A DNA stretch of 64,000 nt, taken from positions 1,541,501-1,605,500 of the forward strand of contig CAJHZI010000811.1 in NCBI GenBank assembly GCA_905160935.1, in the 5' to 3' direction. The notes under the pieces were generated by a model. It was not told where the DNA came from, searched no databases, and saw only the letters and a list, made by a program, of their open reading frames with translations. The position numbers and the translations under genes are program-made. Below, in pieces: positions 2,399 to 20,014 of the stretch; the first letter of the stretch is position 1, and every line of letters starts with the position of its first letter. The stretch comes from Enchytraeus crypticus. Taxonomy: Eukaryota; Annelida; Clitellata; Enchytraeida; Enchytraeidae.

Positions 2399-2462
2399 CT
2401 GAGCAGCATTTATAGTAATCTATTATGTTATTACCAATATATAAAATATACTATATGTATGT

Positions 2463-2467
2463 CTATT

Positions 2468-2499
<32 letters not shown>

Positions 2500-2518
2500 T
2501 ATATATATATATATATAA

Positions 2519-2547
<29 letters not shown>
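2463..2547. repeat. (AT)n microsatellite, left flank of the Polinton
   Basis: Uninterrupted TA/AAT-rich tract. It resumes at 19904 on the other side of the element, so the element landed in one AT array. Confidence 0.9.
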
Positions 2548-2551
<4 letters not shown>

Positions 2552-2553
2552 CA
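2548..2553. repeat. 6-bp target site duplication, left copy
   Basis: 'tataca' immediately outside the left terminal repeat, matching exactly the six bases after the right terminal repeat (19898-19903). Polintons are known to make 6-bp duplications. Confidence 0.85.
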
Positions 2554-2705
2554 AGTAGTTAATATTGAGTAACCTTTGAGTACCAGTGCCAAAGGGGGGT
2601 ACAATTGAAACACCATAATTCGCTCACTTCGTTCGCTCTTAAGGTGTTTCAATGGTACTCCACCCTTTGACACTTGTACTCAAAGGTTACTCAATATTAA
2701 CTACT
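2554..2705 (+). repeat. Left terminal inverted repeat of the Polinton (palindromic)
   Basis: Begins 'agtagttaatattgagtaac' and matches the reverse complement of 19746-19897 with about three differences. The repeat is also an imperfect palindrome: its outer 30 bp recur inverted at its inner end, leaving a central loop of about 28 nt with two 'ttcgctc' direct repeats. Confidence 0.9.
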
Positions 2706-2781: not shown

Positions 2782-3693
2782 CTATGCAACCTCAGATAGT
2801 ATTTGTTCACTGAAATATAAAAACCCTAAATCAATAAGTAATAAATTCTTTTGAATTATCAGTTCTTTAATATTTGAATTTCTCATTTTAGACCCAATTC
2901 GATTTATAAATCTTCTATATTTTTTACGATTAGTCCCAGGTTCTGGCGTCAAAACTAAACCTTCTCTTATTAAATTTGATTTTAATTCAATGAACACATC
3001 AGACGATAGTTCTTCAATAATATTTATTATCATAGCTTCTAAATCACGTATATGCATAAAATCATAAGCAATGTTCCTTCCTTCAAAAACTTCATTAAAT
3101 AGAGTTGTTAAAGTGATAACAAGCCTATACATTCTATTGAACTCTTGATAATCTGGATTTATACCTAATACAGCAGTTGCGACTTTTAATAAATTTTCTA
3201 TACTTATGTCAGACTTTTTAATTAAAATTTGTAAATATATTTTATCAATTACATCATTCTTCAATTTAGTATCTACATATATTTTCGTAGCACAATCATT
3301 ATCATCCACTGGGTTTTTAACATTTGCAATTTTATTATTATTCATATTTAGCTCACTATTTTTATCTATTTTCTTATCTAAATAACCCAATACCTTATTT
3401 TCTAATATACTTAAATTCACAATACTGGTTTTATCTACATAATGTTTATTCGCACAATCATTATCATTCTCTGGGTTTTTAACATTTACAATTTTACTAT
3501 TATTCATATCTAATTCACCATCTTTTAATTTAGCCATTAAACCATTAGCAGATAGGCTTAGCATATTATTGATATTAGGATCTATCTTTACCGATAGTGA
3601 ATCGTTTATAGAACTTAGTCCTCCATATGACAACAGTTTTAAATTAGATTCTAGCTTTTTAGATTGTCTACCAAATAGATCTACAGTGTTCAT
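2782..3693 (-). CDS. Polinton fiber-like attachment protein
   Basis: A 303-residue protein. Residues about 59-87 and 113-141 are two copies of a repeat with the pattern ELxMNNxKIxNVKNPxxDNDCAxKxYVD, closely resembling the shaft/neck repeats of phage tail fibers and other trimeric fibers (MNxxKIxNLxxPxxxxDAxxKxYVD). The C-terminal half (150-303) is predicted helical by eye and unrelated to anything I recognise. Role inferred: virion spike or attachment. It is the last gene at the left end of the leftward set, next to a two-helix membrane protein. The start lies in 'aataaATG'. Its C-terminal 30 or so residues have a second copy on the plus strand at 17308-17466. Confidence 0.75.
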   Translation of the reverse strand: MNTVDLFGRQSKKLESNLKLLSYGGLSSINDSLSVKIDPNINNMLSLSANGLMAKLKDGELDMNNSKIVNVKNPENDNDCANKHYVDKTSIVNLSILENKVLGYLDKKIDKNSELNMNNNKIANVKNPVDDNDCATKIYVDTKLKNDVIDKIYLQILIKKSDISIENLLKVATAVLGINPDYQEFNRMYRLVITLTTLFNEVFEGRNIAYDFMHIRDLEAMIINIIEELSSDVFIELKSNLIREGLVLTPEPGTNRKKYRRFINRIGSKMRNSNIKELIIQKNLLLIDLGFLYFSEQILSEVA

Positions 3694-3699
3694 TTATTA

Positions 3700-4086
3700 C
3701 TATAAAAATTCTTTTATAATATCATTTGATTTCTTTTCTGTTAAATCTCCGTTACACTTCATCACATAATTCATTTGTTGTTTCAATCTATCTAACCTAG
3801 ATATCATATTATTTAGTTCTGCTTTCCTACTTTTGAGATTAAATTTAGTTGATATAGCTGTTGATAAGGCTCCAACAGCTGATAATGTAGTAATGATTAC
3901 TGTAGGAAGTAATGGCAATGCAAATACTCCAGATATTGTAGTTGTTACTGTTGAAACAGTTAATGATGTAACTATTGTTATACCATATGCTACTTGAACT
4001 ATTTTTCTCTTTCTTTTCAAATTTTTGATTTTAGCTTCACAATCTTCTAGCTTATCACTCAAAAATTGTTTTACGTTATTCGTCAT
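3700..4086 (-). CDS. Polinton membrane protein with coiled-coil flanks
   Basis: 128 residues. Charged helical N-terminus (about 1-28), two hydrophobic stretches (about 30-50 and 55-75) separated by a short turn, then a charged helical segment (about 82-115) likely to form a coiled coil. Small two-helix membrane proteins are common in virus-like elements. The start is preceded by 'taaatagaATG', a relaxed version of the TAAATG start signal. Function unknown; virion membrane or entry role is only a guess. Confidence 0.6.
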   Translation of the reverse strand: MTNNVKQFLSDKLEDCEAKIKNLKRKRKIVQVAYGITIVTSLTVSTVTTTISGVFALPLLPTVIITTLSAVGALSTAISTKFNLKSRKAELNNMISRLDRLKQQMNYVMKCNGDLTEKKSNDIIKEFL

Positions 4087-4087
4087 T

Positions 4088-4489
4088 CTATTTAACTAAA
4101 GATAAAATTAAATCTTTATAATCGGATCCTTCACTTAAACGTTTCAGTACAATCAGACACCATTTACCGCAATTCTGATCCATCAATCCTTGCAATTGAA
4201 ATGTAGAGTATAAAATAGGTGATCCTAAATACTCAATTACTTCTTTTGGTGGAGGTAAACCAAAACTGTTAAAATAATATTTTTCATTATTAATTTTAAA
4301 CCAACAAGTCCAATGACTACCACTTTCACTAGATAAATTTAAATTTAATATTCCACACTCAACTTTACAAGATTTTAAATTCTTCAATTCATCTCTCATA
4401 TAGCAACCCCTAAAACTTTTAATTTTTAACATTTTTGAATAATTCTCAATTTCAATATTACTAAGAGCCCTATCAGGAATACTATCCAT
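4088..4489 (-). CDS. PRO: Polinton adenain-like cysteine protease (PRO)
   Basis: 133 residues with the order of catalytic motifs of adenovirus-type maturation proteases: His59 in GSHWTCW, Asn74 in YYFNSFG (the acid position; Asn or Asp is seen in the family), Gln105 and Cys107 in DQNCGKWC. The expected role is cleavage of capsid and core precursors during assembly. The neighbouring ORF at 4497-4931 has a GG motif before a hydrophobic segment that could be a substrate. Start in 'caataaATG'. Confidence 0.88.
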   Translation of the reverse strand: MDSIPDRALSNIEIENYSKMLKIKSFRGCYMRDELKNLKSCKVECGILNLNLSSESGSHWTCWFKINNEKYYFNSFGLPPPKEVIEYLGSPILYSTFQLQGLMDQNCGKWCLIVLKRLSEGSDYKDLILSLVK

Positions 4490-4496
4490 TTATTGG

Positions 4497-4931
4497 TTAT
4501 AATCTTAATCCTTTTCCCTTTGATCTACCTGTTCCAGTCTTCTTTAATTGATCCTCAAGCGCTTTATTATGTCTTGCTGTTTCTTTATCAGCTTGACTTT
4601 GTTGAACTCTTGATGCAACAGTTCCTGCAACTGTACTTACTCCTCCCAAAGCAGCAGCAATAATAGGAATTAATACTGCTAAAGGTAAAAGCCCCCCTTT
4701 CTTTATTTTATTACTTATAAATTTTAATTGTGCTGAAGAAAACTTTAAATCATGAACATTACCATCATGCAATTTATTTATTTGAGTTGCAGTTAATGGT
4801 AAATTATATCCATGTTGGTTCATATCTGTTTTACTTAATCTCAAAGTAACTTCTGTATTGCCTTTAATCGCAATAGCAATTTTCTCTATCTGGCTTTTAG
4901 TCAAGGTAAACTTTGTTTGATAATAAGTCAT
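4497..4931 (-). CDS. Polinton small virion protein with hydrophobic GG segment (adenovirus pVI/pX-like)
   Basis: 144 residues. After a polar N-terminal half there is KKGGLLPLAVLIPIIAAALG (about 88-107), then a basic, Lys-rich tail ending GKGLRL. A Lys-Gly-Gly step before a hydrophobic amphipathic stretch is typical of core or membrane-lytic precursor proteins cut by the adenain-like protease; the protease gene is next door. The exact orthologue is not certain. Start in 'aataaATG'. Confidence 0.55.
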   Translation of the reverse strand: MTYYQTKFTLTKSQIEKIAIAIKGNTEVTLRLSKTDMNQHGYNLPLTATQINKLHDGNVHDLKFSSAQLKFISNKIKKGGLLPLAVLIPIIAAALGGVSTVAGTVASRVQQSQADKETARHNKALEDQLKKTGTGRSKGKGLRL

Positions 4932-4947
4932 TTATTTAGATAAAAAT

Positions 4948-6334
4948 TTAATATCTGATATATTGTTTACTACCATCTGATTCTATCGACCAAATTCTAT
5001 CATGATATACAACTGCATAAGCTGTAGTATTTGCGGGAGCATTTGCACTAAACTTAAAAGTTACTCTGATATCTACAACAGTATTTTTAAGTCTCTCAGA
5101 CTGTTTCGATACATCAAATACGTATAACCTAAACAACTTTTTAAAAAGCTTGATACGATATACAATCATTCTCTTCTTCATCTTCAGAATAACTTTTCTT
5201 AAATTCTTTAAACGAATTATAAAATTGAGCATACTGATTACTGTCATAATTAGTTATATAATCATTGCTAGGATATCTTTCACTATTCAATTCAACATAA
5301 GCATTAATTACTTGCACATTAGCATTGAATATAGCATAATTAGTTTCTGCTTGATTAGCTGCTGGAGATTGAAAGCCTACAACGATATACCTAGGTTTTT
5401 CGATACCTGAAGCTATAGATAATCTCCAAGCAAATTCAGTAGCTTGGGGAACAATAGTGTTCTCAGATTTCTTGTTCATAAAACAAAGCGGAAACGATTC
5501 TTTTTTCTTAATGTAATCATTTAAAATTCCTCTTTCTTCTAAACTTACTGTAACTACTGGAATATGCCATTGTATCTTAGTTAAGTTTACTCTACCTGCA
5601 TTAGCAACTCCACCATTTCGTATTATTGCCTGAGTATCAGTTTGTCTAGGAAAAACAATCGAATGCTTACATCCATAAATAATCTTTCTATATTGTTTAC
5701 AGAAATTAAATATAAATTCTAAAGGAATTTTGAATGCAAATGATCCAGATGTATAATTTCTTCTTTCTTCAAATCCCTTATTTTGATTGATCATTCCATC
5801 TGTTAATCTCGTAACAGTTGTTTGTAAAGCTGTTAATATATTAGCAGCAGTATTTCCTGGAATATCTCCTGCTACTAAATTCACAATTTCACTCAAAGTT
5901 TGAGGTGTTCCATTACCAGAATCTAAGCTCCAACATTGATCCATTCCATTGAAACTATTACTTTTAGTTAATAATGCATCTATTGTTGTAGTATGACCTG
6001 GATATTGAAATCTCTCAACTTCATGATCTCCTATATGATATCTTGCTTCGCTAAATAGATACATCATAGCATTATTTTGTAATGCTACTAAACTATTTGC
6101 AGCATAAGGTTGATTAGTAGTAGAATCTTGTAATTGTCCTTCAATGTAAAGAAAACTCTTACAAGGTAATGACCAGATATCTTCACTTAAAATTTGAATT
6201 CTAATTTCTTGTCCATTGGCATTAAGTGCAGTTCCTTGAGATGGATCATAAACTCTATATTGAAATTTTTCTACAGATTCATCATAATTAAAAGATTTTT
6301 CAAGCTCCAAATAAGACTCTTTTACTTTTTCCAT
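4948..6334 (-). pseudogene. MCP: Polinton major capsid protein region (double jelly-roll MCP)
   Basis: The long reading frame (397 residues from 6334) carries hallmarks of the Polinton MCP: an N-terminal region with EIRIQILSEDIW, a long Ala/Thr-rich mid region, and EERRNYTSGSFAFKIPL followed by a conserved aromatic block (NFCKQYRKIIYG). The end of the region contains the usual capsid C-terminal strand pattern. The coding sense is not continuous across the whole region, with about one break. Placement between the small virion protein and the minor capsid gene is the family's usual order. Start in 'aataaATG'. Confidence 0.85.
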
Positions 6335-6349
6335 TTATTAATGAAAAAA

Positions 6350-6649
6350 CTAAACGTAAGCAAATCCAGTTCCAATTTTAAATTGATTAATTCTATCAAC
6401 AATATTTTGTAACTCAGGTTTTCTTTTATTCCTTATCTCTTGAACAATTGCTTTTGTTGAATCAGCAAACTTTACAGTATTTGCTATTGCTTCTGTTGGA
6501 GAGTTAATACCAATGTCTTTAGGTAAAGATAAAACTTTTAAAATATCTACAAAACCTTTACCACTTACATATTCTCTATTTCTACAATGACAATAACCCT
6601 TTCCACATATTACTTTTCTACTTTCTCTCCTCTTTAGCTTGAGACCCAT
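6350..6649 (-). CDS. Polinton small Cys-containing virion-associated protein, unknown
   Basis: 99 residues. Basic N-terminus, Cys/His cluster CGKGYCHC (about 15-22), then GKGFVDILKVL, a hydrophobic step after Gly-Lys-Gly that recalls precursor cleavage sites, and a helical C-terminal half. It sits between the major and minor capsid genes and starts in 'aataaATG'. I do not recognise the family; a core or cement protein is plausible. Confidence 0.5.
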   Translation of the reverse strand: MGLKLKRRESRKVICGKGYCHCRNREYVSGKGFVDILKVLSLPKDIGINSPTEAIANTVKFADSTKAIVQEIRNKRKPELQNIVDRINQFKIGTGFAYV

Positions 6650-6718
6650 TTATTAATCATTAATTTAAAATTATATATATATTTTTTCGCTTAATTTTGT
6701 ACATCCTGAGTAATAACC

Positions 6719-7513
6719 TTATTTTACGCTTCTAATATGAAATCTACATGTAATATTCTCTCCTCTAAAATCTATAGGTCTTCCATCTTGATCTGTTATC
6801 CAAATACTAAATTCACTCAATGTTTTTCTATTCAATGGTAAATAAACAAGATTAACTGGAGATTCTACAATTCTAAAACCTGGTTGCACCTTAGGTCCAA
6901 ATGAATATAGAACTGGAGATGATATTCCATTAACAAACGATTCAGTTATACAATCGCAATTAACAAATATACTGTTGAACTCGATAATGTTAACAATATA
7001 TTGTGATTCATTACGTCCTTTTGATAAAATTATATCATCAAAACCTAATATACTTCTCAGTGAATTAGGTATTGTGAAATCAACTTTATAGTCTGAATTT
7101 GTTATATCAATAATCGATTTCATAGTTGAAGTATTAGGTGATAAAGTTATGTAATAAGCATTACTAGCAGAATCCCAATCTCCATTTAGTTTCATCAACC
7201 TTTGAATCTCATCATTTATTGCTTCTATTTGATATGCTCCAATTTCAATAGTTATTAATTTCCAAGTATTTCCACCATCTACTGAATACTTAAAATTATT
7301 ATTTGCTAGTGTAATATTTGCAAAACTATACCATGTCTCTAAATTTACAAGTGCAATTTCTAGATCATAATCATTAAGAATAATAGGATTAGGAAATTTA
7401 ATAGTATAAACTTCGGCTGAATTATCATAGGATATCAGAATAGATTTAGATATAGACTTTTTCTGAAAGTAAGCAGAAATGGGTTCAAGGAGACTAATTA
7501 TTTTCTGTTCCAT
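6719..7513 (-). CDS. mCP: Polinton minor capsid protein (single jelly-roll, penton-type)
   Basis: 264 residues, all-beta in appearance. N-terminal strand pattern with NDYDLEIALVNLETWYSF, then SILGFDD, and a conserved C-terminal half: NSIFVNCDCI, SSPVLYSFGPKVQPGFRI, NLVYLPLN and IWITDQDGRPIDFRGENI. This motif series is characteristic of the Polinton penton-like protein that closes the fivefold vertices. It reads through from start to stop. Start in 'aataaATG'; 206 bp of non-coding sequence without a gene call longer than noise separates it from the next gene only in part (6650-6718). Confidence 0.85.
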   Translation of the reverse strand: MEQKIISLLEPISAYFQKKSISKSILISYDNSAEVYTIKFPNPIILNDYDLEIALVNLETWYSFANITLANNNFKYSVDGGNTWKLITIEIGAYQIEAINDEIQRLMKLNGDWDSASNAYYITLSPNTSTMKSIIDITNSDYKVDFTIPNSLRSILGFDDIILSKGRNESQYIVNIIEFNSIFVNCDCITESFVNGISSPVLYSFGPKVQPGFRIVESPVNLVYLPLNRKTLSEFSIWITDQDGRPIDFRGENITCRFHIRSVK

Positions 7514-7519
7514 TTATTA

Positions 7520-8740
7520 CTAATTAATTTTACTTATAATATCCCTGAATTGTTTCTTAGTTATTATTCCTTTATTGAATAAAATATCTAAAATAGCATT
7601 AATTTCATTAAACATACTTTTATTTCCTGCTGAATATTCCCCAATCAATAGATTTAATCTTTCTTTTAAGGTATCTACATTATCTGGTAGAATTATTGTA
7701 TTTAGTCCATTACCTATCACTTGAACATCTTTATCCAATTCATCCAATCTATTTAGTTTTGCAAGAACGCTGTGTAACTTTTTACCTACTGTTCTATGTT
7801 GCCTGTAATCTAATCCAGAATCAATGCAAATAGTTAAATAGTTATCTAAATCTGTATCTAATATTCTTTCATCTAAATTAGGATTAACTCTATTCAACAA
7901 TAACTCTAAACCTTGTGTAAGAATATATTCTTTATCTGCAATTTTAATTTTGTTATCTTTGAATAGAACATTGTAGTTACCAAATTTTACAGTATCAGAA
8001 TCATTTTCTTCGTAATAAAAGATAGGTGAAACAGTTACGATTCCATGTTTACCTTTATTATTTATTCCAGGATTTCTTTTCATTAAACTAACCATTACTT
8101 CTTTATACATTTTATTATCACTTGGACTTTCCTGAAATACAGAATCTGTGTAAGTAGGTAATTGTACAACTTCTTCCTCCTCATATTCTGTGGCTTTAAT
8201 CTTTTCTTGTATCCCATAATATTGTACGAGTGTTCTTAGATCATCGTAATTGATATGATTTAAAGGTTCTAGTGTTTTTATATCTTGTTCATTAAGATTC
8301 TGTATACCATCAGGATGCATAATTTTCTTTACTAATTCTGGATAGTTATTTAATTTGCTAATTAATTCTGCTAATAATGGTTGTTTTGCTATTGAGCTGA
8401 TAATATCTAAACCTTGTTGTCTAGTTTCTTCCTTACATCTCCCTAAACCTCTAATAATATCTGTAAGTAAACGTGATGATCTATCATGTTTACCTTGTAA
8501 ATCTGTTAACAATTGTTGAAACAAATCATCCGTTCTTCTAATCTGCTTACTGATAGTTAACTGTTGCGTATCTGTAATAGGTTTGTAGATTTCTTTTAGC
8601 TCTGTTTGTACATTTTGTTTAGCAATTACTTCATCATCAAATCTTTTCCTTAATCTTCTATTTTGAGTGGATACCTTCTTGAGCAATTCTTGATTTTCTC
8701 CATTCATCAACTCTTCTTTAAACCTTACCAATGAACTCAT
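7520..8740 (-). CDS. Polinton protein with GL..LL domain, function unknown
   Basis: 406 residues. Residues 1-110 are highly charged helix, likely coiled coil; the C-terminal part has KFGNYNVLFKDNKIKIADK followed by YILTQGLELLLNRVNPN. A core of this pattern (short strand pair, then Y..T.GL..LL) is found in many unnamed Polinton ORFs of invertebrates, from memory. No enzyme motif seen. It lies between the minor capsid and integrase genes, so a structural or packaging role is likely but unproved. Start in 'aataaATG'. Confidence 0.6.
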   Translation of the reverse strand: MSSLVRFKEELMNGENQELLKKVSTQNRRLRKRFDDEVIAKQNVQTELKEIYKPITDTQQLTISKQIRRTDDLFQQLLTDLQGKHDRSSRLLTDIIRGLGRCKEETRQQGLDIISSIAKQPLLAELISKLNNYPELVKKIMHPDGIQNLNEQDIKTLEPLNHINYDDLRTLVQYYGIQEKIKATEYEEEEVVQLPTYTDSVFQESPSDNKMYKEVMVSLMKRNPGINNKGKHGIVTVSPIFYYEENDSDTVKFGNYNVLFKDNKIKIADKEYILTQGLELLLNRVNPNLDERILDTDLDNYLTICIDSGLDYRQHRTVGKKLHSVLAKLNRLDELDKDVQVIGNGLNTIILPDNVDTLKERLNLLIGEYSAGNKSMFNEINAILDILFNKGIITKKQFRDIISKIN

Positions 8741-8755
8741 TTATTAACTGCATTT

Positions 8756-9540
8756 TTAAAATGATGATAAATTCAATTCTTGTTTGTAGAAAGATCCGAT
8801 AATATCTTCACCGTTTAAATCTTTTATTTTATATGTTATCGGAGATGTATTGATAATTTTAGATACAGTGAATATTTCTTCAGTCCAATTTGTTTCGTAA
8901 CCTTTTGAAAATAGTTTTTTATATTTATAAATTCTAACTCTATCACCTATTTTAAATTTAGGTTTCTCGTTTGTAGGTTGTGGTATGTAATTAATTTTGT
9001 GTTCATTTTCCAACTTTGATCCTTCAGTTGGAGTCATTTTGATTGTAGAATGAATTGTATTATTATATTCATGAATCAGTTTAGGTAAAGCATCTAAATA
9101 TTTATTACTACCTGTTTCAGTAAAATATCTCCACATCTTTTCTTTAATAGTTCTATTAAATCTTTCAATAACAACAGCCTTACCTTCATTGAACGATTGA
9201 TATAACTGTATTTCATTATCAGTTAAGAATTTCTGAAATTCTTTGTTAATAAATTCCTTTCCTGCATCAGTCCATAATTTTTTAGGTTTTCTTTCTTGGA
9301 ATAATTGTTGAAATAATTCAATCATTTGTTTACCTGTCTTAACTTTTATCGGTATTGCCCAACCAAATTTAGAGAATACATCTATTACAGTGAGAATGTA
9401 ATTGAATCCTTTATTTTGCTTTGCGTATTGTCTCATATCAACTAAATCTGCTGACCATATATCATCTATATTATACACTATAACTTTTTTTCGTTTAAAT
9501 TTCTTTATTATGGGTTTGTGTAATTCTTTAGCTTCTTCGA
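8756..9540 (-). pseudogene. INT: Polinton retroviral-type integrase region (INT)
   Basis: DDE integrase core: Asp in IWSADLVDM, Asp in LWTDAGKEF, Glu in IERFNRTIKEKMW, followed by a C-terminal SH3/chromo-like segment (KFKIGDRVRIYKYK ... WTEEIFTVSKI). The sequence KPIIKKFKRKKV before the core is the usual Polinton lead-in. The N-terminal zinc-binding part is not seen, so the gene looks incomplete. The integrase makes the 6-bp staggered insertion that explains the target duplication. It overlaps slightly the 3' end of the PLA2-like gene. Confidence 0.88.
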
Positions 9541-10055
9541 TTTTTTTTTTTTAATGTTCCTAAACCTAATTTATATTTTGTAGCTATAATTGGCTTAATA
9601 ACTGCTTTACCTAATTTTTCATTAAAATTCAAATCTTTAAGATTATCAAGTTCTTGTAACATCTTCTTGTCTGCTTCACGCCTAGTTCCCTTTCCTAAAT
9701 CAGAATCTCTATAAGCTAAATCATGGTTTAAACAAACTTCATCAACTTTATTTATAGGCTTTGACCATTCTTTTGGTGTGTCATCAGGATTTAATCTTTC
9801 CTCTAGCTTTGTATTGGGACCACAGAATGAATATTTTTTACCCTTCAGGGTTCTTAAATGAAATTCAATAGGTATTTTAGAAATTACAGATGAAACGATA
9901 TCACCTCCAGTTGTAGATTTCGATATAAATCTATTCTTTTTAGATCCACAAATTTCACATTTTCCTTTAAGTATTGGTTTATTATTTTTAGTTACAGATT
10001 CAATTAAGTTTAAAGTTGAAGTTTTACTTTTACATTTTAGACAATATATTTCCAT
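9528..10055 (-). CDS. Polinton zinc-ribbon plus phospholipase A2-like protein
   Basis: 175 residues. N-terminal four-cysteine ribbon: CLKC (about 5-8) and CEIC (about 33-36), like the small DUF5679-type ribbon. C-terminal half carries the parvovirus-VP1-type PLA2 signature: FCGPNTKLEERL (calcium loop) and VDEVCLNHDLAYRD (His-Asp catalytic pair). Such domains help incoming virions leave the endosome in parvoviruses; Polintons and adintoviruses are known to carry relatives. Start in 'actaaATG', directly upstream of integrase. Confidence 0.78.
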   Translation of the reverse strand: MEIYCLKCKSKTSTLNLIESVTKNNKPILKGKCEICGSKKNRFISKSTTGGDIVSSVISKIPIEFHLRTLKGKKYSFCGPNTKLEERLNPDDTPKEWSKPINKVDEVCLNHDLAYRDSDLGKGTRREADKKMLQELDNLKDLNFNEKLGKAVIKPIIATKYKLGLGTLKKKNRRS

Positions 10056-10080
10056 TTAGTAAAGTAAAAAATTCCCATTG

Positions 10081-10368
10081 TTAATTTAATCGAATATATG
10101 ATGAACTTGGATTATATCCAGAAATCTGAGCGTATGTGTATTTAGAATTTTTTCTAACAGTGAATGAGAATTTATCTTTCGGGGAATATTCAGAAATGTA
10201 TGCAGCTATTAATTTAGTTGCGAACATTTCAAATTCTTCATCGTTAAGGATGTGTGTACATCTGATAATATAAGTATCTCCAAATTTAGTATTTATCGGT
10301 TTGTATCCAATTACATAGTAGGAATGATCAATAGTTAGATCAGCAAGCTTCAGAAGTTGTGCGTCCAT
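10081..10368 (-). CDS. Polinton small protein, possibly OB-fold ssDNA-binding
   Basis: 95 residues: LADLTIDHSYYVIGYKPIN then KFGDTYIIRCTHI and EEFEMFATKLIAAYI. A short protein with 'L..L....Y.I......T.FG..Y....' resembles small single-strand-binding-like proteins I recall from arthropod Polintons. The similarity is by pattern only. It sits between ATPase and PLA2 genes; start in 'aataaATG'. Confidence 0.45.
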   Translation of the reverse strand: MDAQLLKLADLTIDHSYYVIGYKPINTKFGDTYIIRCTHILNDEEFEMFATKLIAAYISEYSPKDKFSFTVRKNSKYTYAQISGYNPSSSYIRLN

Positions 10369-10383
10369 TTATTATGTGAAAGA

Positions 10384-11307
10384 TTATATGAAAGCTTTTT
10401 TATGACGCTTCGATTTAACATGTTTGGCATGACTAGAGCTTAACATTGTTAGGTTGCAAGATGTACAAGTTTTTGTAGCTCTACGTATTCTATCTATAGG
10501 TTGTGATATTATATTTTCAACTAACTGTACGGGTTGTTCAAGTTCTAATTGAAATCTATATTTTTCATTGAGATTTGATTTAGATTTATCAATAACTAAA
10601 TATCCATATTTCTTAGACCATGCTTGTTCACACAACTGTCTAAATTTATTAATATCTTTGAAATCAACGCTTGCTCCAGAATCTCTATATAGATTATCGG
10701 TATCCCCGGGATCTAGATTGAATAATATTAGGAAATTAGAATTTGATCTAATAGTATGTCTAGGTAAATGATAATAATTTTGAGAAATGTATATACAATC
10801 GATATTATTATGTCTACTTCTAGTAAAGAATGCACCAGGTGCCGATTGATTCTTATCTGTCATAATATCGTCAAATATTATAAGATTCTTGTCCTGTTTA
10901 TCAAACTCTTTAGGATCAGGAATATCATTTGGATCTTCATAATATTCACAAGATATATCTCCTTTCTCCTCATCTTCTAATTCTTGCGCAAGTCCTGCAG
11001 CTATAACTTCCGGCTTTTCATCACGTTCATTAATCATAGAATTATGCATTAGGATTTCTGTTATATCAGACTTAGGTAATTTATTATCAAAGCCAGCTTT
11101 TAGTATTTGATATTCCGGTTGATGAAGGGATCTTCCAAATACATATAGTTTATTGTAATCTAACATATCTTCCTGAAGTAGCATCCTCATAAGTAAAGCC
11201 GTTTTCCCGGAACCTGATTGTCCGATTATTAAGCATCGGAATGACTCCGGAAATATATCTGAATGCTTCTTACTCTTCTTAGATATCCAGTAATACTTCG
11301 CTTCCAT
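10384..11307 (-). CDS. ATP: Polinton A32-like genome-packaging ATPase (ATP)
   Basis: 307 residues. Walker A GQSGSGKT at 29-36 after CLII, Walker B NLIIFDD at 141-147, then SRHNNIDCIYISQNYYHLPR, the conserved downstream block of FtsK/HerA-type viral packaging motors. The C-terminus has a C2H2-like unit (CTSCNLTM...HAKHVKSKRH). It would drive DNA into the capsid. Start in 'gataaATG'. The 53 bp between this start and the rightward lectin gene is a short divergent intergenic space. Confidence 0.92.
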   Translation of the reverse strand: MEAKYYWISKKSKKHSDIFPESFRCLIIGQSGSGKTALLMRMLLQEDMLDYNKLYVFGRSLHQPEYQILKAGFDNKLPKSDITEILMHNSMINERDEKPEVIAAGLAQELEDEEKGDISCEYYEDPNDIPDPKEFDKQDKNLIIFDDIMTDKNQSAPGAFFTRSRHNNIDCIYISQNYYHLPRHTIRSNSNFLILFNLDPGDTDNLYRDSGASVDFKDINKFRQLCEQAWSKKYGYLVIDKSKSNLNEKYRFQLELEQPVQLVENIISQPIDRIRRATKTCTSCNLTMLSSSHAKHVKSKRHKKAFI

Positions 11308-11360
11308 TTATCTGTATAAACTCCACTTAAAAATATTTCAATTAAATATTTACCTATTAA

Positions 11361-11606
11361 ATGAAAGTGGAGTTTGGAAAGCAAAATATACTTGGTTCAA
11401 GATTTAGTGGTGGATCAGGATTTACACCTCATAAATTTACAGAACCTCCAGTTGTTATTTGTCAGTTAGTGAGATCAGCTCGATATTGTCAGGATTGGGC
11501 TCTGCATATTAACCCGTGTAATATTACAAAAGATAGTTTTCAATATTTTGTAGAAGGTCACTATAAACCTGGAGATCAATGTCATTGGATAGCTATTGGT
11601 AATTAG
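11361..11606 (+). CDS. H-type-lectin-like protein, the lone rightward gene among the TAAATG-started genes
   Basis: 81 residues. The order 'V.FGKQ....FSGGSGFTPHKF', PPVVICQLV, a central DWALHINPCNITKDSFQYFVEG and a final CHWIAIGN matches the H-type lectin fold (Helix pomatia agglutinin, discoidin C-terminal domain): a PPxV strand, an 'xxGF/SFxxxV' strand and a closing W.A.G. The similarity is by pattern only. H-type lectins bind sugars such as GalNAc as trimers or hexamers. No signal peptide. Start in 'tattaaATG', and it diverges from the ATPase gene. Partial copies of its 3' end lie downstream. A virion glycan-binding role is inference. Confidence 0.65.
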   Translation: MKVEFGKQNILGSRFSGGSGFTPHKFTEPPVVICQLVRSARYCQDWALHINPCNITKDSFQYFVEGHYKPGDQCHWIAIGN

Positions 11607-12031
11607 TATATCTTTACCTGCTGTTAAATGTTATCTTAAAACATCTATCATAATAATATCATAAAATAATAAAATAATAAAAATAATAATAATAATAATA
11701 TAATAATAATAATACATACAATAAAAATAATAAAAAAATAAAAAAAAAAAAATAATAATAATAATAGATAATAATAATAATAATAACTAATAATAAATAA
11801 TAATAATAATAATATAATAATAAAAATAATAAGAAATAATAATTTTAAAATATGTAATAATAATAATAAAAGGTAAAAATATAATAATAAATAATAATAA
11901 ATAATAAATAATAATTAATAATAAATAATCATAACTAATAATCAATGTCACTGGATAGCTATTGGTGATTAGTATATCTTTTAAAATCATAACCTTCTGT
12001 TATAAGTTATCTTAAAACATCTTTCATAATA

Positions 12032-12077
<46 letters not shown>

Positions 12078-12133
12078 CAATGTCATTGGATAGCTATTGG
12101 TGATTAGTATATCTCTCGTCACTAAAACATCTA
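11607..12133 (+). repeat. (AAT)n array with two further copies of the lectin gene 3' end
   Basis: Dense AAT/AATA repeats from about 11650 to 12075. Blocks at 11940-12033 and 12076-12133 repeat the lectin gene end and its downstream flank (shared 'tcattggatagctattggt' and 'gattagtatatct'). The pattern suggests tandem duplication of gene end plus downstream AAT tract, then expansion of the tract. The minus-strand ORF in this stretch is low-complexity and not real. Confidence 0.8.
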
Positions 12134-12322
12134 TCACCACCACACATCACAATAACCACCACAGTTTCTACATGACTCAGAGCATCTTCCAACACAGTCA
12201 CCACCACAGTGTACACATACTCCTTCTTCTGTATCGTTCTTATAGCATTCACATGTGATTATATCCATGTGATTATATCCATTTGATAATACCATTCTTT
12301 TCCAATAAATTTTTTTTAGCAT
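12134..12322 (-). CDS. Polinton small Cys-rich protein
   Basis: Up to 62 residues, with several possible starts; one at MDIITCECY gives about 43. The tail is dense in Cys: CECYKN, CVHCGGDC, CSESCRNCGGYC. Likely metal-binding or disulfide-knotted. It lacks the TAAATG signal and overlaps the end of the upstream gene by about 50 bp, so whether it is translated separately is uncertain. Confidence 0.4.
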   Translation of the reverse strand: MLKKIYWKRMVLSNGYNHMDIITCECYKNDTEEGVCVHCGGDCVGRCSESCRNCGGYCDVWW

Positions 12323-12707
12323 TTTCTAATTTAGCATATATAGAATTCGTAAAAGGTACATGGGCAATAAGAATTAAAGTATCGTTAGTAAGTCTATTAA
12401 AATCTATTCCATCAAGCAGTATATTTTTGATTATTTTAAAATCATCCTCATCATAATCATCATCTCCATACTTTTTACCCTTCATCAGTGATAATTCAAA
12501 GCACAAATTATCGATCAATACGTAAGTATCATCAGTAATGTTACTATGTTTAATTCCTCTGCAGAGTGTAGCTTCCAAACATTTTAAAACTGTTGATTTT
12601 AAAAATGATGTTTTTTCAGAAGGTTCCATACCCTCTAATTTTTCTAAAGTTGTATCTAGCACCTTTCTCAAAGCCATATCTTGTAGTCGATTCGTTGTTC
12701 CTTTCAT
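12273..12707 (-). CDS. Polinton unknown helical protein
   Basis: 144 residues, mostly helical by pattern, with an acidic patch YGDDDYDEDDF near residue 85. No family recognised. Start in 'aataaATG'. Its start codon overlaps the stop of the next upstream gene by four bases (12704-12707), so the two are tightly coupled. Confidence 0.55.
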   Translation of the reverse strand: MKGTTNRLQDMALRKVLDTTLEKLEGMEPSEKTSFLKSTVLKCLEATLCRGIKHSNITDDTYVLIDNLCFELSLMKGKKYGDDDYDEDDFKIIKNILLDGIDFNRLTNDTLILIAHVPFTNSIYAKLENAKKNLLEKNGIIKWI

Positions 12708-12931
12708 TTATTAGAGAATTCTATATATGAAAGAAAATTTTTCAAATGTAGTTTTGTTTTAATATGATCTGAGTAATTGTATAGTGTCATGGTTTTATCA
12801 CATATTTCACAGTAATACTTTTTAGCAGCATATTTTTTATAAGCTTTTAACTTTGCTTGTTTTCTCTCTTCCTCTGTATCATACTTTTTAACTCTTTTAG
12901 TCAAATCACCTGTTAGAGTAGATCCACTCAT
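12704..12931 (-). CDS. Polinton single C2H2 zinc-finger protein
   Basis: 75 residues. Basic helical N-terminus (KQAKLKAYKKYAAKKYY) then CEICDKTMTLYNYSDHIKTKLH, a C2H2 finger of the U1/'JAZ' type with an H-x5-H end. The same finger style ends the packaging ATPase and the protein at 17005-17307. Start in 'aataaATG'. Confidence 0.65.
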   Translation of the reverse strand: MSGSTLTGDLTKRVKKYDTEEERKQAKLKAYKKYAAKKYYCEICDKTMTLYNYSDHIKTKLHLKNFLSYIEFSNK

Positions 12932-12984
12932 TTATTTAGTAATTAATTGTTTGAAAGAATTTTTTCTTTAATGTAAAGTTTTCC

Positions 12985-13060
12985 CTAACAAAAGATAGTT
13001 TTCAATATTTTGTAGAAGGACCTGGAGATCAATGCCATTGGATAGCTGTTGGTAATTAAA
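12985..13060 (+). pseudogene. Partial copy of the H-type-lectin gene 3' end
   Basis: A plus-strand block carrying the last third of the lectin gene, including KDSFQYFVEG and CHWIAVGN, placed about 1.4 kb from the intact copy and abutting the 3' end of the polymerase gene. A fragment, not a gene. It shows that lectin-bearing sequence was present twice. Confidence 0.75.
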
Positions 13061-16000
13061 TTATTAGAGGTCTAATATGTATACCATCTTGGAATAAAAC
13101 CCCCTTTGTATAAATAGGGGTAAGTCCAATTTTATTCTGTACATAGGTCTTAATACATTTTTTCGTAAATCTAAATCCTCTGTTGACAGCGCTCATCTGC
13201 TTCCGACTTTGTAAACAACTTAAGTATGTTTTCTTGTTTAATATCTCTATATTTTTACTATTACTTTGCTGTACTCCTTTAGCACTACACTTATCCTCTT
13301 CAGCTTTACCCTTATCGCCTTTAACTCCAAATACATAGTAGGATTTACTACATAATGCAATCATTCCGTCTCCTTCACATTCTATTTTAAATAATCCTGG
13401 CTCTCTTTTATCATGTATTTTGTGTTCGACAGTATCTGTTCTAGGAAACCAATTAACTCTATCTCGTTCAAATGCATCTCTTAATTCCGGTTTTATTAAG
13501 TTTTCAAACTTATCTGTTAGTGCCATGTATGCACTATCTGTATCCATTTCCATATACTGAAAATCTGATCTATCTAAATATTTATCGATGCAATCATAAT
13601 AAAATTTTAGCATCCTGAGCTTTGAATAATCATAGACTGTACAGCCTATTTGGATGGGTATATTCTGTTTTATTGTTTTCTTTTTCTGAATCACTTCATA
13701 TACTCCATTATATTCTGTTGCATCATAAAATGTAGGTTTACATTTTAATTTATTGAATTTCTTTTCGTCGCAGAACTGAGTCTTTTTATGTTTATTCTTA
13801 TTCATTATCGTCCTACCAATGGAACTATTGCCTGAAATCTTTGCAGAATCTGCTATAATAGCATATTTTGTATCCACATCCCCCTTTCTTCTTTCATCAC
13901 TTACCCAATCCGCGAATCCTTTAAATATCTTTCTAGGTATTGCTGGAATTACTCCATATAATTTAGTTACTCTACAACCGTGTTCTATTAGCCATTTTAT
14001 CGTATCAGATGAGAGTAAGATTTGAGTTGCTTGTAAAGTTCCTATCAATTTCTTCGACTTTGTGAATTTTCTTTTTATGTTCATGACTAGATTCTTTGTG
14101 AATTCACCACAGACTGATTCGTCATATTCCATATTCTTAAAAATAGGACACATCTCACTAAAATATTCGTATTTGTCTTCGGGAACATTAATGTCTACTT
14201 CTAAGAAACCGTAGAATATATCTTTAAAATATTGTATATCTTTATTACTGTAGTGTACAATGTGTTCTGTGGATATCCACTTAAGTTCACCACAGGGCAT
14301 ATCTAATCCTAGGCAATATAAATATAATGCATTTGCATCGAATCCACATATCTTTTTCACCGTCTTACCAACTTTATCGTAAGTCCATTCCTTATTTTGT
14401 CGATCATAATGAACTCTGGTTATTTGTGTTTCATCTGTTTCGTGATATCTATGATAAACTATTGATGCACCACCAACAATATTTTTCTTAAATTTATAGA
14501 AAACTTCACTATTTTCGTTATTAATAATTCTAATTAGGGGATACTTTTTATCGTATCGTTCTAACGCTTTTTGTCTATAAAATTTCTTATACAAGTCATC
14601 AGCTCTTTGTCTATTACAAGTTATACAAGCAATTACACAATTATCTTTAGTATGCGATTTAGAACAGTCGATTCTATCTAAAGTCCACAAGTTCTTGTAA
14701 TTATACGAAACTGGTTGCCAGCAGTAGTGACATGAATATTTTTCTTCAATTAGCAGTATTCTAACGTCATTTATTTCAATATAATTTTCTAGTGGTCTAT
14801 TAGCTTTTACATCTTGTTCTTTGTACCCTTCAATTCTTTCTTTAATATTCGAATTAAATATAGTTTCTGTTCTACCATCTTTTGATTTGTCTTTTAGAAA
14901 CACTTCAAAATCTTTAATAGAAAATTGAAACATAATATTTTCACTTAATGCTGGTAAAGATGTTGCATCTTTGTACATGTCTAATTTAAATATGGAATAG
15001 AACTCTTTCTGCTTTAAGCAAGCTTTCAACATCGGTCTTACATCCAAATTGTTATACCATTTTAGTAGGTCTCTTATGTAAACTAATCCAATATCCTTCC
15101 AGTAGTCCATAAAATTATTTAATTCATCTAAAGATAATTTAGTGTTTTTAAGTGTCGAGTCAAAATCTTCTACTTTTAGAACTGTTATTGGATAATCCAA
15201 TTTTTCATAGGAATCTAACCACTCATATGGGAATATACCTTTAACCTCACCCACATCGTAAGCTTTAATAAATTTATCTAGAGTTGTTCCAGCCGCACAG
15301 TATGACATCTGATCTAGAAAGAGAAATTGTGCTGTTTTTATACACTTGTATCTATTAGCAGTTTTCAATATGAAGGGATTTTTATCTCGCTTTAGTATTT
15401 CGGGCATGAACCCTTCATTAATCAGTAAACAGGTATCGTAGAAACCTGAATTAAATCCAACTATTGGAATGCTAGAGCAGTACTGATTTAATTGACTTAG
15501 ATACATTTCTCTTTTCTTCTCATTATCATATTGAGATATTTTATCATATAAAGGTTTCATTTTTTGAATCATCAAATTTCTAGCAGTACTAGATACTTCA
15601 TCGAAATATTGAAACATTTGGTTAGTTAATTCTTTAGGGTCTTTGACCAATATAAATTTTTCTTCTCTGTCATAACCGGGGGTATTGGTTGAAATTGAAA
15701 CAGATATAGGAACATGCTGAGTTACATAGTTTAATTTCTTTAATTTTGATACGTATTCATTAATCTTTAGTAGAAGAGATTCTAAATCAAAAATCATTAG
15801 GTATTCATATTTAAAATCTACTTCTACTTCAAAATATTCAGACAATTCAACAACTACATTTCTTTTACACTGCCAGATATCAGATTTGCTATTAAATGAA
15901 TCAGTATGTTCAACTTTACAAGTCTTGGAATGTCTGTCAAGAAGACAGGGTTTATCAAATCTGTATCCGCATCTATCGCACACAAAACTCTTTGCCAGTT

Positions 16001-16961
16001 TAAATAAATTTGTTACTACAGATAAATGATTTTCATATAAATTCAAATATTTAGGTTCTCTATCGTAGTTAAATTTAGATTTTCTAATATATTTAATCGA
16101 CTTATCTTCACTATAACATATGATATTTATTGCGTACACTGTATCGGACTCATACTTGTCTAATTCATTAACGTAGTCAAATCCTGGATAGTTCTTAATT
16201 TTTTCTTCTGTTTGCTTTGCATCTAAATCGTAAAATTTTCTAAATAACTCTTTTGCTTGCTTCAAATATCTGTCTTTCCTAGATCCATTAATGATTGCAA
16301 AACACCCCCATGCACACATGTTGTTTTTAATTTGATCTAGCGATATTATGAATGCTGACGATTTTATATAATCTGGCAACTGAACATTTGCACCAACTGG
16401 GTAATCCAACCTAATTATTTTGACAGCCATTGCATAGACACCAACTAATCTAGTTGACGAATCTGAGAAATCTAGACTAATTTTTTTCATAATTTCATCT
16501 CCAGTTAAATAGTGGAAAGTATTGTTCAAATCTTGGTAATTTTTAATTAGTTGGTATTTATCGAAATAGAATTGCTGAGACGGTTCAAATATTCTAACTT
16601 CATTAAGTATATTTTCGCAGGCATAACCAAACGCTATCTGAAGTTTAAAGGCATTATTTTCATTCATGTATATATCTGTCAAACACTTTTTTATATCATC
16701 AAAGGACTTAATACAGTTGTAGTAATACATTTTGATATACTTATTATACTTTTCAATACCATGTCTCTTCCTTAAAGCAGATACTATCTTACGTATTTTA
16801 TTTATATTGTTAGAGGGATTCAGTATCCAGAATTTCTCAATATTGCATTTTCTATATTTTTTATTGAAATCTGTACGCTGTTTACCAAGTGTCAGTCTTT
16901 TTATACTTTTATATCTTATTACTCTTCTTCTCTTCAAAGCTGGTGGTACTGTACTCTCCAT
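13056..16961 (-). CDS. pPolB: Polinton protein-primed family B DNA polymerase (pPolB) with HNH-like insert
   Basis: 1301 residues, uninterrupted. N-terminal region with a CDRC...H...C finger (about 328-348). Exonuclease: ExoI FDLES (about 391), ExoII GFNSGFYD (502-509), ExoIII near YIRDLLKW (about 628). Polymerase: motif A DANALYLY (875-882), motif B KISGNSSIG (1041-1049), motif C DTDS (1140-1143), KSYYVF (1206). Between exonuclease and polymerase domains lies a compact HNH-like unit: CHYC (about 744), LDRID (761), HTKDN (770), CITCNRQR (779). The enzyme would copy the linear element from protein-primed ends. Start in 'agtaaATG'. Confidence 0.95.
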   Translation of the reverse strand: MESTVPPALKRRRVIRYKSIKRLTLGKQRTDFNKKYRKCNIEKFWILNPSNNINKIRKIVSALRKRHGIEKYNKYIKMYYYNCIKSFDDIKKCLTDIYMNENNAFKLQIAFGYACENILNEVRIFEPSQQFYFDKYQLIKNYQDLNNTFHYLTGDEIMKKISLDFSDSSTRLVGVYAMAVKIIRLDYPVGANVQLPDYIKSSAFIISLDQIKNNMCAWGCFAIINGSRKDRYLKQAKELFRKFYDLDAKQTEEKIKNYPGFDYVNELDKYESDTVYAINIICYSEDKSIKYIRKSKFNYDREPKYLNLYENHLSVVTNLFKLAKSFVCDRCGYRFDKPCLLDRHSKTCKVEHTDSFNSKSDIWQCKRNVVVELSEYFEVEVDFKYEYLMIFDLESLLLKINEYVSKLKKLNYVTQHVPISVSISTNTPGYDREEKFILVKDPKELTNQMFQYFDEVSSTARNLMIQKMKPLYDKISQYDNEKKREMYLSQLNQYCSSIPIVGFNSGFYDTCLLINEGFMPEILKRDKNPFILKTANRYKCIKTAQFLFLDQMSYCAAGTTLDKFIKAYDVGEVKGIFPYEWLDSYEKLDYPITVLKVEDFDSTLKNTKLSLDELNNFMDYWKDIGLVYIRDLLKWYNNLDVRPMLKACLKQKEFYSIFKLDMYKDATSLPALSENIMFQFSIKDFEVFLKDKSKDGRTETIFNSNIKERIEGYKEQDVKANRPLENYIEINDVRILLIEEKYSCHYCWQPVSYNYKNLWTLDRIDCSKSHTKDNCVIACITCNRQRADDLYKKFYRQKALERYDKKYPLIRIINNENSEVFYKFKKNIVGGASIVYHRYHETDETQITRVHYDRQNKEWTYDKVGKTVKKICGFDANALYLYCLGLDMPCGELKWISTEHIVHYSNKDIQYFKDIFYGFLEVDINVPEDKYEYFSEMCPIFKNMEYDESVCGEFTKNLVMNIKRKFTKSKKLIGTLQATQILLSSDTIKWLIEHGCRVTKLYGVIPAIPRKIFKGFADWVSDERRKGDVDTKYAIIADSAKISGNSSIGRTIMNKNKHKKTQFCDEKKFNKLKCKPTFYDATEYNGVYEVIQKKKTIKQNIPIQIGCTVYDYSKLRMLKFYYDCIDKYLDRSDFQYMEMDTDSAYMALTDKFENLIKPELRDAFERDRVNWFPRTDTVEHKIHDKREPGLFKIECEGDGMIALCSKSYYVFGVKGDKGKAEEDKCSAKGVQQSNSKNIEILNKKTYLSCLQSRKQMSAVNRGFRFTKKCIKTYVQNKIGLTPIYTKGVLFQDGIHIRPLII

Positions 16962-17004
16962 TTACTTATACTATTTATATATGAAAGAATTAATGATTTA
17001 TTTT

Positions 17005-17307
17005 TTACTGCAATAGAGACATCTCATAAATATGTCTCTTTGTTTTCACATGTCCAGATAAGCAGTACTCCTTGATTACTTTTCCACAAGTGCATACAAT
17101 ATCTTTTGTATGAGGGTTATTGCGATTGTGTACAAACATGTGTTTATTCATGTTACTATAGGAAATTAATTTCTCACAAATTTCACAAGGTATTTTTTGT
17201 CTGTATGCTTCAGCTATACACGACTTACATTTATATGAGACACCTACGCTTTTTGGAAATAAATCTCTAGATTTAGTTACTTTGCAAGTCTTACAGAAGG
17301 ACTCCAT
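17005..17307 (-). CDS. Polinton multi-zinc-finger protein
   Basis: 100 residues with three cysteine/histidine units: CKTCKVTKSRDLF..CKSC (a ribbon like those in phage HNH-associated proteins), CEICEKLISYSNMNKHMFVH (C2H2), and CTCGKVIKEYCLSGHVKTKRH (C2H2). Likely nucleic-acid binding. It is the first leftward gene after the palindrome array, directly upstream of the polymerase, so it may be a regulator or replication partner. Start in 'attaaATG'. Confidence 0.65.
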   Translation of the reverse strand: MESFCKTCKVTKSRDLFPKSVGVSYKCKSCIAEAYRQKIPCEICEKLISYSNMNKHMFVHNRNNPHTKDIVCTCGKVIKEYCLSGHVKTKRHIYEMSLLQ

Positions 17308-17466
17308 TTAATAGTACCATTATTTGTGAAGTAAATTTTATAAGAGAATTATTAAAATCTCAGAATATAATAAATTCTATGAGAGAATTGATTCAAAAGA
17401 ATTTATTACTTATCGATTCAATGTTTATATATTTATGTGAAGAAATGCTAACGGAGCTTGTATAGT
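17308..17466 (+). pseudogene. Partial copy of the fiber gene C-terminus on the opposite strand
   Basis: The plus strand here encodes a stretch closely matching the last 30 or so residues of the fiber protein (shared KELI/RELI, QKNLLLID and the same ending pattern), and 'tagtaaatg' follows the stop in both copies. It lies over 13 kb from the intact fiber gene and in the opposite orientation. Fragment only. Confidence 0.75.
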
Positions 17467-19387: not shown

Positions 19388-19450
19388 GGGTATTTATAGG
19401 ACACCAACAATTTAGATTACCCGATCGAACAAAAGGAGTATTTATAAAGC
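19388..19450 (-). promoter_or_regulatory. TATA-type promoter of the right-end cassette
   Basis: Read on the minus strand, 'ctttataaatac' and 'cctataaatac' precede the ORF starting at 19376. No other leftward gene of the element has such TATA boxes directly upstream. Confidence 0.5.
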
Positions 19451-19745: not shown

Positions 19746-19897
19746 AGTAGTTAATATTGAGTAACCTTTGAGTACAAGTGGCACAAGGTGGAGTACCATT
19801 GAAACACCTTAAGAGCGAACGAAGTGAGCGAATTATGGTGTTTCAATTGTACCCCCCTTTGGCACTGGTACTCAAAGGTTACTCAATATTAACTACT
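19746..19897 (-). repeat. Right terminal inverted repeat of the Polinton (palindromic)
   Basis: Reverse complement of the left repeat with about three differences, all in the inner arm. Same internal palindrome. Confidence 0.9.
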
Positions 19898-19898
19898 T

Positions 19899-19903
<5 letters not shown>
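19898..19903. repeat. 6-bp target site duplication, right copy
   Basis: 'tataca', identical to 2548-2553. Confidence 0.85.
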
Positions 19904-19956
<53 letters not shown>

Positions 19957-20014
19957 ATATATATATAAATAAATAAATAAATAAATATATATATATATAT
20001 ATGTATATATATAC

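Follow-up and report, generated by a model that had tools for sequence, protein, structure and literature searches.

A Polinton in the Enchytraeus crypticus genome

The DNA considered here, a window of 64,000 nucleotides (nt) from contig CAJHZI010000811.1 of the annelid Enchytraeus crypticus, contains a Polinton of about 17.5 kb, and our subject is the hexamer TAAATG, which stands at nearly all of its gene starts. The element is bounded by inverted repeats at 2452-2705 and 19746-19999 and shows several hallmarks of the Polinton/Maverick group, namely terminal inverted repeats, a double jelly-roll major capsid protein (MCP), a packaging ATPase and a retrovirus-type integrase (Table 1). Pfam backs the capsid, ATPase, integrase, DUF5679/PLA2 and small virion proteins; the matches of the fiber and lectin proteins fall under the cut-off. 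The remaining labels are our own. The open reading frame (ORF) that we take to be pPolB, from its sequence motifs, has no polymerase B match in Pfam at E 0.1, and homologous ORFs are present in family B, one of the related families introduced below. The ORF that is presumably an adenovirus-type protease, a label backed by orthology, has no Pfam support, and the assumed minor capsid gene, without a usable Pfam match, has orthologues in five other families. Genes without a name are cited by the coordinate of their start. The MCP is frameshifted in the window copy, with 5141-6334 and 4948-5247 both matching PF21738. A structural model of the 10368 protein from AlphaFold (mean predicted local distance difference test score 58.6) was not used.

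A hexamer at the gene starts

TAAATG is found at 15/16 gene starts of the element, at ten of them in the form AATAAATG; the sixteenth, that of the membrane gene at 4086 (TAAATAGAATG), has TAAAT three bases upstream of its ATG. An earlier note on this DNA, made from the letters alone, had counted fourteen of fifteen starts: its pattern stands, and the count is corrected to 15/16, since all fifteen starts that it named bear the word and the membrane gene is the exception. It had also placed the word on both strands, and the lectin-like gene at 11361, which alone in the cluster points rightward, indeed has it. TAA precedes only 14/583 of the other ATGs in the element and 63/1823 of those in the rest of the window, and at the element's own rate the binomial P for 15/16 starts is 8e-24. 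On this contrast, plain AT-richness was rejected as the cause; TAAATG is not frequent as such in the window (93 seen vs 94 expected), and it is the position that is special. Stop-start coupling was likewise rejected, as genes without a close upstream neighbour bear TAAATG too. The right-end ORF was correctly described as lacking the word and having TATA boxes, with its start at 19367 rather than at 19376. At this end, the ORFs 18589-19038 and 18999-19367, which differ in frame, share 40 bases and lie under host-like TATA boxes.

An upstream box at a fixed distance

A second box, TTCTTTYATATA, precedes several replication-type genes of family A, to which the window element belongs, and is centred on no other distance than -28 relative to the ATG in the clearest cases. 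Within the window, TTCTTTCATATA-like boxes stand at this distance before pPolB, 12707 and 12931, with that of 10368 less exact, and three genes of other family A copies, without a match to window proteins (MEALK, MASTK and L046), also have a box at -28, although one of the two MASTK copies fits better at -30. A search of the 524 Mb host genome for TTCTTTYATATA N{0,30} TAAATG gave 212 matches vs 29 for a reversed control of any spacing. Among the 100 of these 212 matches listed, the spacer is exactly 13 in 90, the other ten being scattered (3, 3, 12, 20, 22, 23, 23, 25, 25 and 28); by eye, the matches fall into five or six promoter types whose spacers are unrelated in sequence. When the spacer was limited to N{11,15} and the ATG had to be followed by a purine, there were 190 matches vs five for the control, all 100 listed having a spacer of 13 and comprising, by eye, about 20 different strings. 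Measured on the family A pieces, the distance from box to ORF start is 28 for 27 of the 33 boxes that have an ORF, with 12 further boxes lacking one. One box site distant from the listed family A ATPases precedes an ORF that by eye resembles both the pPolB of a related element and the ORFs of piece L041, which match pPolB at 36-38%.

Conservation among family A copies

At eight genes compared among family A copies, TAAATG is kept at 114/123 starts and TAAAT at 120/123; six of the nine exceptions have ATA for ATG with TAAAT intact (five in 12707 and one in the MCP). Among the copies compared, the box is retained in all of 10368 and 12707 and in most of 12931 (Table 1). Over these three genes, 1/51 sites vary within the box vs 17/96 in the stretch just upstream (P = 0.007), a flattering contrast from which copies with unaligned upstream sequence, including the 12931 copies without a box, had been dropped; positions -6 to -1 are invariant, and variation is seen at -11 to -7. 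Among late-type genes, the six that could be compared vary at 1/18 sites from -3 to -1 and at 15/54 from -20 to -12. This comparison was made without pPolB and 17307, none of the 20 pieces aimed at the family A pPolB start having matched. Among the best 40 of 101 MCP candidates scored, all covering the query in full or to within one base, there was no partial copy beginning at the ATG, as might come from a retrocopy with a poly(A) leader.

Several family A copies (L078, L079, L081, L082, L086, L088, L091 and L092) carry MEALK as an extra opposite-strand gene between the minor capsid gene and 6649, with its own box and its own TAAATG.

Different start words in one host

The host genome has at least 115 matches to the window's packaging ATPase at 81-100% identity and at least 16 to a second family at 42-43%, both counts being lower bounds that include several fragments of single copies. 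A search of IMG/VR with the ATPase and an MCP alignment gave no relatives, and all DNA of related elements was therefore taken from the window's own genome. A capsid search of this genome, in which the best 126 of 689 candidates were scored, revealed at least six Polinton families (A, B, C, D, F and G) with differing start words. ORFs of the fetched B, C, D, F and G pieces were grouped by BLAST and one start was counted per gene; the 19 family A starts are the 16 of the window and three from other A copies. ORFs with an unclear true start were not counted, namely the proteases of C, D and G and those integrase ORFs that lack a start of their own.

TAAATG occurs at 18/19 starts in A and 6/7 in F, vs 2/7 in C, 1/7 in G, 1/9 in B and 0/11 in D. 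A and F have at their starts the TAAAT(G) core of a poxvirus late promoter, and D does not. TAAAATG is instead the word in D (9/11) and B (5/9), with none in A, C, F or G. In the family C copy L025, TAAAT lies within ten bases of the ATG in 7/7 starts, on the ATG itself or no more than 6 nt ahead of it, and the starts of G are mixed (TATATG in 3/7, ATATAATG in 2/7). The contrast in start words has P = 2e-7 for A vs D and 3e-5 for C vs D. C and D are sisters, with 77% shared residues in the minor capsid protein and 61% in the MCP, and their words differ; A and F are only 40% alike in the minor capsid protein and have the same word. That sister families differ means that neither the common host nor descent alone explains the word. 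TAAAT or TAAAA can be separated from the ATG, as in the membrane gene of A and B and in family C. At -3, T stands in 18/19 family A starts vs a purine in 4/4 host histone starts, and also in F (6/7) and G (4/7); a fifth host stretch yielded no start. The base A occupies -1 and -2 in the majority of starts in families A, B, D and F.

Other boxes are found outside family A. In D, CTTAAA[GT]AAA lies at -27 to -29 in the orthologues of 12931 and 10368 and in a presumed polymerase-region ORF (exact CTTAAA in 3/11 starts), and TTTAAAAATAT stands at about -25 in several structural genes. In B, TTTAAAGAAAA precedes TAAATAATG at the presumed pPolB start. A string of the form TAAAAA-N10-15-TAAA is found near the ATG in 4/11 starts of D vs 0.38 expected, in 2/9 of B and 1/7 of G, and in none of A, C or F.

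Family C (L025, L026 and L034) has intergenic cassettes with an inverted-repeat look before its genes, of 31 nt and in four copies in L025, which vary between copies at the same gene with TAAAT mostly retained. Short tandem repeats of the ATACATAATA type lie between the ATPase and the 8740 orthologue in C, D and G (L025, L028 and L031).

Table 1. Start motifs, upstream boxes and landmarks of the Polinton, in window coordinates
Feature	Position	Strand	Remarks
Left inverted repeat arm	2452..2705	+	254 nt, 93% complementary to 19746-19999
TAAATG (AATAAATG), fiber-like gene 2782-3693	3691..3696	-	PF03906 23.2 bits, below cut-off
TAAATAGAATG, membrane gene 3700-4086	4084..4094	-	TAAAT three bases before ATG; family B orthologue has TATAAAAGAATG
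TAAATG, protease-like gene 4088-4489	4487..4492	-	motif read directly
TAAATG, small virion protein 4497-4931	4929..4934	-	PF05829 Adeno_PX 1.5e-7
TAAATG, major capsid protein 5141-6334	6332..6337	-	PF21738 1.1e-34; frame broken in window copy
TAAATG, gene 6350-6649	6647..6652	-	motif read directly
TAAATG, minor capsid gene 6719-7513	7511..7516	-	motif read directly
TAAATG, gene 7520-8740	8738..8743	-	motif read directly
Integrase ORF, without own start motif	8756..9436	-	PF00665 2.3e-11
TAAATG, DUF5679/PLA2 gene 9528-10055	10053..10058	-	Pfam; start probably shared with integrase by frameshift
TAAATG, gene 10081-10368	10366..10371	-	kept in 19/19 copies
Upstream box AGCTTTCATATA of 10368, at -28	10385..10396	-	8/10 match to TTCTTTYATA; kept in 19/19 copies
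TAAATG, packaging ATPase 10384-11307	11305..11310	-	PF04665 2.1e-15; kept in 16/19 copies
TAAATG, lectin-like gene 11361-11606	11358..11363	+	PF09458 E 0.035, below cut-off
TAAATG, gene 12273-12707	12705..12710	-	TAAAT in 15/15 copies, ATG in 10/15
Upstream box TTCTTTCATATA of 12707, at -28	12724..12735	-	kept in 15/15 copies
TAAATG, zinc-finger-like gene 12704-12931	12929..12934	-	zf-DBF 9.6e-4, below cut-off; kept in 12/12 copies
Upstream box TTCTTTCAAACA of 12931, at -28	12948..12959	-	kept in 8/12 copies
TAAATG, pPolB 13056-16961	16959..16964	-	motif read directly
Upstream box TTCTTTCATATA of pPolB, at -28	16978..16989	-	motif match
TAAATG, gene 17005-17307	17305..17310	-	cysteine-rich, zinc-finger-like by eye; poor box (7/10) at -27
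TATAAATA, 31 nt before right-end gene start 19367	19391..19398	-	no TAAATG at this start
Second TATAAATA copy, 79 bases before ATG at 19367	19439-19446	-	TATA box
Right inverted repeat arm	19746..19999	-	pairs with 2452..2705

The integrase and a probable host gene

The integrase ORF, which the earlier note had left out of its gene list, lies just behind the PLA2 ORF in a different frame and lacks a TAAATG start. Translation that begins at 10055 probably enters it by frameshifting, and the integrase may be made as a PLA2-integrase fusion. The window region 8756-10055 was compared with pieces L025, L026, L028, L029, L030, L032, L031 and L022. A slippery-looking heptamer, A AAA AAC, stands shortly before the PLA2 stop in families C (L025), D and F, with the integrase in the -1 frame. 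Family A has a run of 7-14 A near the end of PLA2, with the integrase in the -1 frame in 10/19 copies, in the PLA2 frame in three and in the third frame in six. In family G, PLA2 and integrase form one ORF of 460 amino acids, and family B has a DUF5679-integrase fusion without PLA2.

On the minus strand of the window, at 27131-55032, there are ORFs that by eye resemble exons of a receptor guanylate cyclase, such that the Polinton sits beside or inside a host gene of this kind. These receptor-like ORFs, together with histone genes recognized by eye, agree with the host being an animal.

A proposed two-part promoter and its rivals

The word, the box, their fixed spacing in family A, their conservation and the differences between families are direct observations, and they suggest that TAAATG is likely the initiator half of a two-part promoter of virus type. 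Two conserved blocks at a fixed spacing, before genes that differ in sequence and run in either direction, point to a promoter; a ribosome context or a poly(A) signal would need neither a box at -28 nor differences between families of one host. The proposal of a virus-type transcription start signal is thus well supported by the fixed-distance box, by conservation in blocks with a free spacer, by family-specific words in one host and by the occurrence of TAAAT some bases ahead of the ATG; its qualifier "late" was inexact, since TAAATG is at replication-type genes too. On this model, a factor would bind the upstream box, the sequence of which differs by family and gene class (in family A TTCTTTYATATA for replication-type genes; in D CTTAAA[GT]AAA for these and TTTAAAAATAT for several structural genes). 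We infer that RNA synthesis would begin inside T-AAA-T, either on the ATG or a few bases ahead of it, that slippage of the polymerase would probably add a poly(A) leader, and that there would be early and late classes of genes. The right-end gene, with its ordinary TATA boxes, would be transcribed first, by the host polymerase, and the remaining genes either by the polymerase of a helper DNA virus or by host polymerase II under the direction of a factor that the element encodes.

A number of observations weigh against such a promoter. The window alone gives a marginal box (five genes; 14/500 shuffles reach that), and the genome matches represent perhaps five or six promoters in repeated copies rather than independent cases. 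The structural genes of family A have no clear upstream box in common, and the family D box pattern, being too loose, is not above control genome-wide (131 vs 104). Most starts of family G are without TAAA (1/7 has it), family B is exact in only 5/9, and the ATPase start of the family C copy L026 has no TAAAT close by. Among family A copies, TAAAT is lost in 3/19 ATPase copies, which are the remaining three exceptions; 4/12 copies of 12931 lack the box yet have TAAATG, copy L053 being a fifth; and MEALK in copy L076 has AACAAATG. The host control consists of four histone starts only, and the per-site contrast is, as said, flattering. Finally, none of the element's proteins is recognized by Pfam as a polymerase, as a capping enzyme or as one of the known late factors.

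That A-rich bases before the ATG merely aid ribosomes in an AT-rich genome is very improbable. The A at -1 and -2 would fit, but the frequent T at -3 in A, F and G is unfavourable for translation by the usual rule, one host would set one context for all families, and the box at -28 would be left unexplained; a Kozak context was rejected as the cause. The earlier note's alternative, in which AATAAATG would serve both as the poly(A) signal of one gene and as the start of the gene that follows, proved weak and is unlikely, though it has some evidence in its favour. In A, by our own sorting, the AATAAA form stands at 10/12 starts that closely follow a gene on the same strand vs 0/3 that do not (P = 0.02); copies L083, L086, L091 and L093, with an opposite-strand ORF before 6649, have ATTAAATG there; and AATAAA within 60 bases of stops is raised, though only in A (8/17 vs 3.9 shuffled) and B (6/10 vs 2.5), C having 3/10 vs 1.6. 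Yet it does not exceed the shuffled expectation in D (3/12 vs 4.3), F (1/10 vs 1.4) and G (1/9 vs 1.9), the inserted MEALK has AATAAATG without a close same-strand upstream neighbour, copy L078 keeps AATAAATG at 6649 despite an opposite-strand neighbour, and TAAATG persists where AATAAA is absent.

Within the two-part promoter itself, two ways of reading it are about level, each of them possible but tentative. In one, host polymerase II acts with a zinc-finger-like protein of the element (e.g., 12931 or 17307) that binds the box, with the initiator on the ATG and very short leaders. The element is integrated and has no polymerase of its own that Pfam can see, two small zinc-finger-like ORFs (weak matches; by eye) fall in the window's replication-type class, and the right-end gene has TATA boxes. 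However, only about 20 bases separate the ATG from the TATA-like part of the box and the usual distance from TATA to start is 30 bases, so that the RNA would start inside the ORF; the weak poly(A) signals of D, F and G also speak against host transcription. In the other, a sub-case of the virus-type promoter, these Polintons would be virophage-like, with boxes and TAAAT words that imitate promoters belonging to a DNA virus of the cytoplasm (poxvirus-like or another nucleocytoplasmic large DNA virus), whose polymerase would transcribe the element in co-infection; each family would match a different helper, hence the differing words. This agrees with motifs that vary between families without tracking descent, with the poxvirus late word in A, with the closeness of the family D string TAAAAA-N10-15-TAAA to the intermediate consensus, and with the weakness of AATAAA after stops in D, F and G. 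Against it, no helper is known or was found, the right-end gene has TATA boxes, the integration suggests a nuclear phase, and Pox_VLTF3 (PF04947) had no match in the host genome, an uninformative result as the control was equally silent. That the start words record which helpers there were in the past, each animal Polinton family being switched on by a particular cytoplasmic DNA virus, is a speculative possibility.

Parallels in known systems

A single element for transcription and translation start is known from the metazoan TISU (translation initiator of short 5' untranslated region), the consensus of which is GC-rich and bound by a host factor. The Polinton word resembles it in serving both starts and differs in the fixed-distance upstream box, which TISU does not have.

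Among cytoplasmic systems, the vaccinia consensus strings given in PMC11423596 are TAAATG for late and TAAAAA-N14-TAAA for intermediate promoters, and TAAATG is also described as the poxvirus late start in an entomopoxvirus (PMC3061580). Family A resembles them in the TAAATG at its start codons, and part of family D in TAAAAA followed, after a comparably long spacer, by TAAA. However, the element has no viral polymerase or late factor recognized by Pfam, and TTCTTTYATATA is absent from the consensus strings listed in PMC11423596; the link to poxviruses is only an analogy so far. In the cytoplasmic linear plasmids of yeast (virus-like elements, VLEs), one conserved box lies 20-40 nt before each ORF together with a TAAAN initiator, and polymerase slippage on this initiator gives poly(A) leaders, according to PMC6211774. 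The arrangement is alike, but the VLE box is ATNTGA, and VLEs encode their own polymerase and capping enzyme. A further parallel is provided by the EMALEs (endogenous mavirus-like virophages of Cafeteria), of which several related types with differing promoter motifs are reported from one flagellate species (PMC8547959); there the host is a protist and a giant virus is known for mavirus, whereas here the host is an animal with no known helper. No account of such promoters in animal Polintons was found in searches of open-licence papers, and the word "promoter" does not occur in PMC4642659.

Implications

A promoter code common to the genes of a family and differing between families, like that of large cytoplasmic DNA viruses, turns the transcription of Polintons into a testable question: it predicts the positions of 5' ends and gives a way to annotate and class their genes. 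If the helper reading is true, virophage-type parasitism would extend to animals, and the start words could be used for finding the helper viruses, with TTCTTTYATATA-N13-TAAATG or CTTAAAGAAA as the strings to match at the gene starts of large DNA viruses.

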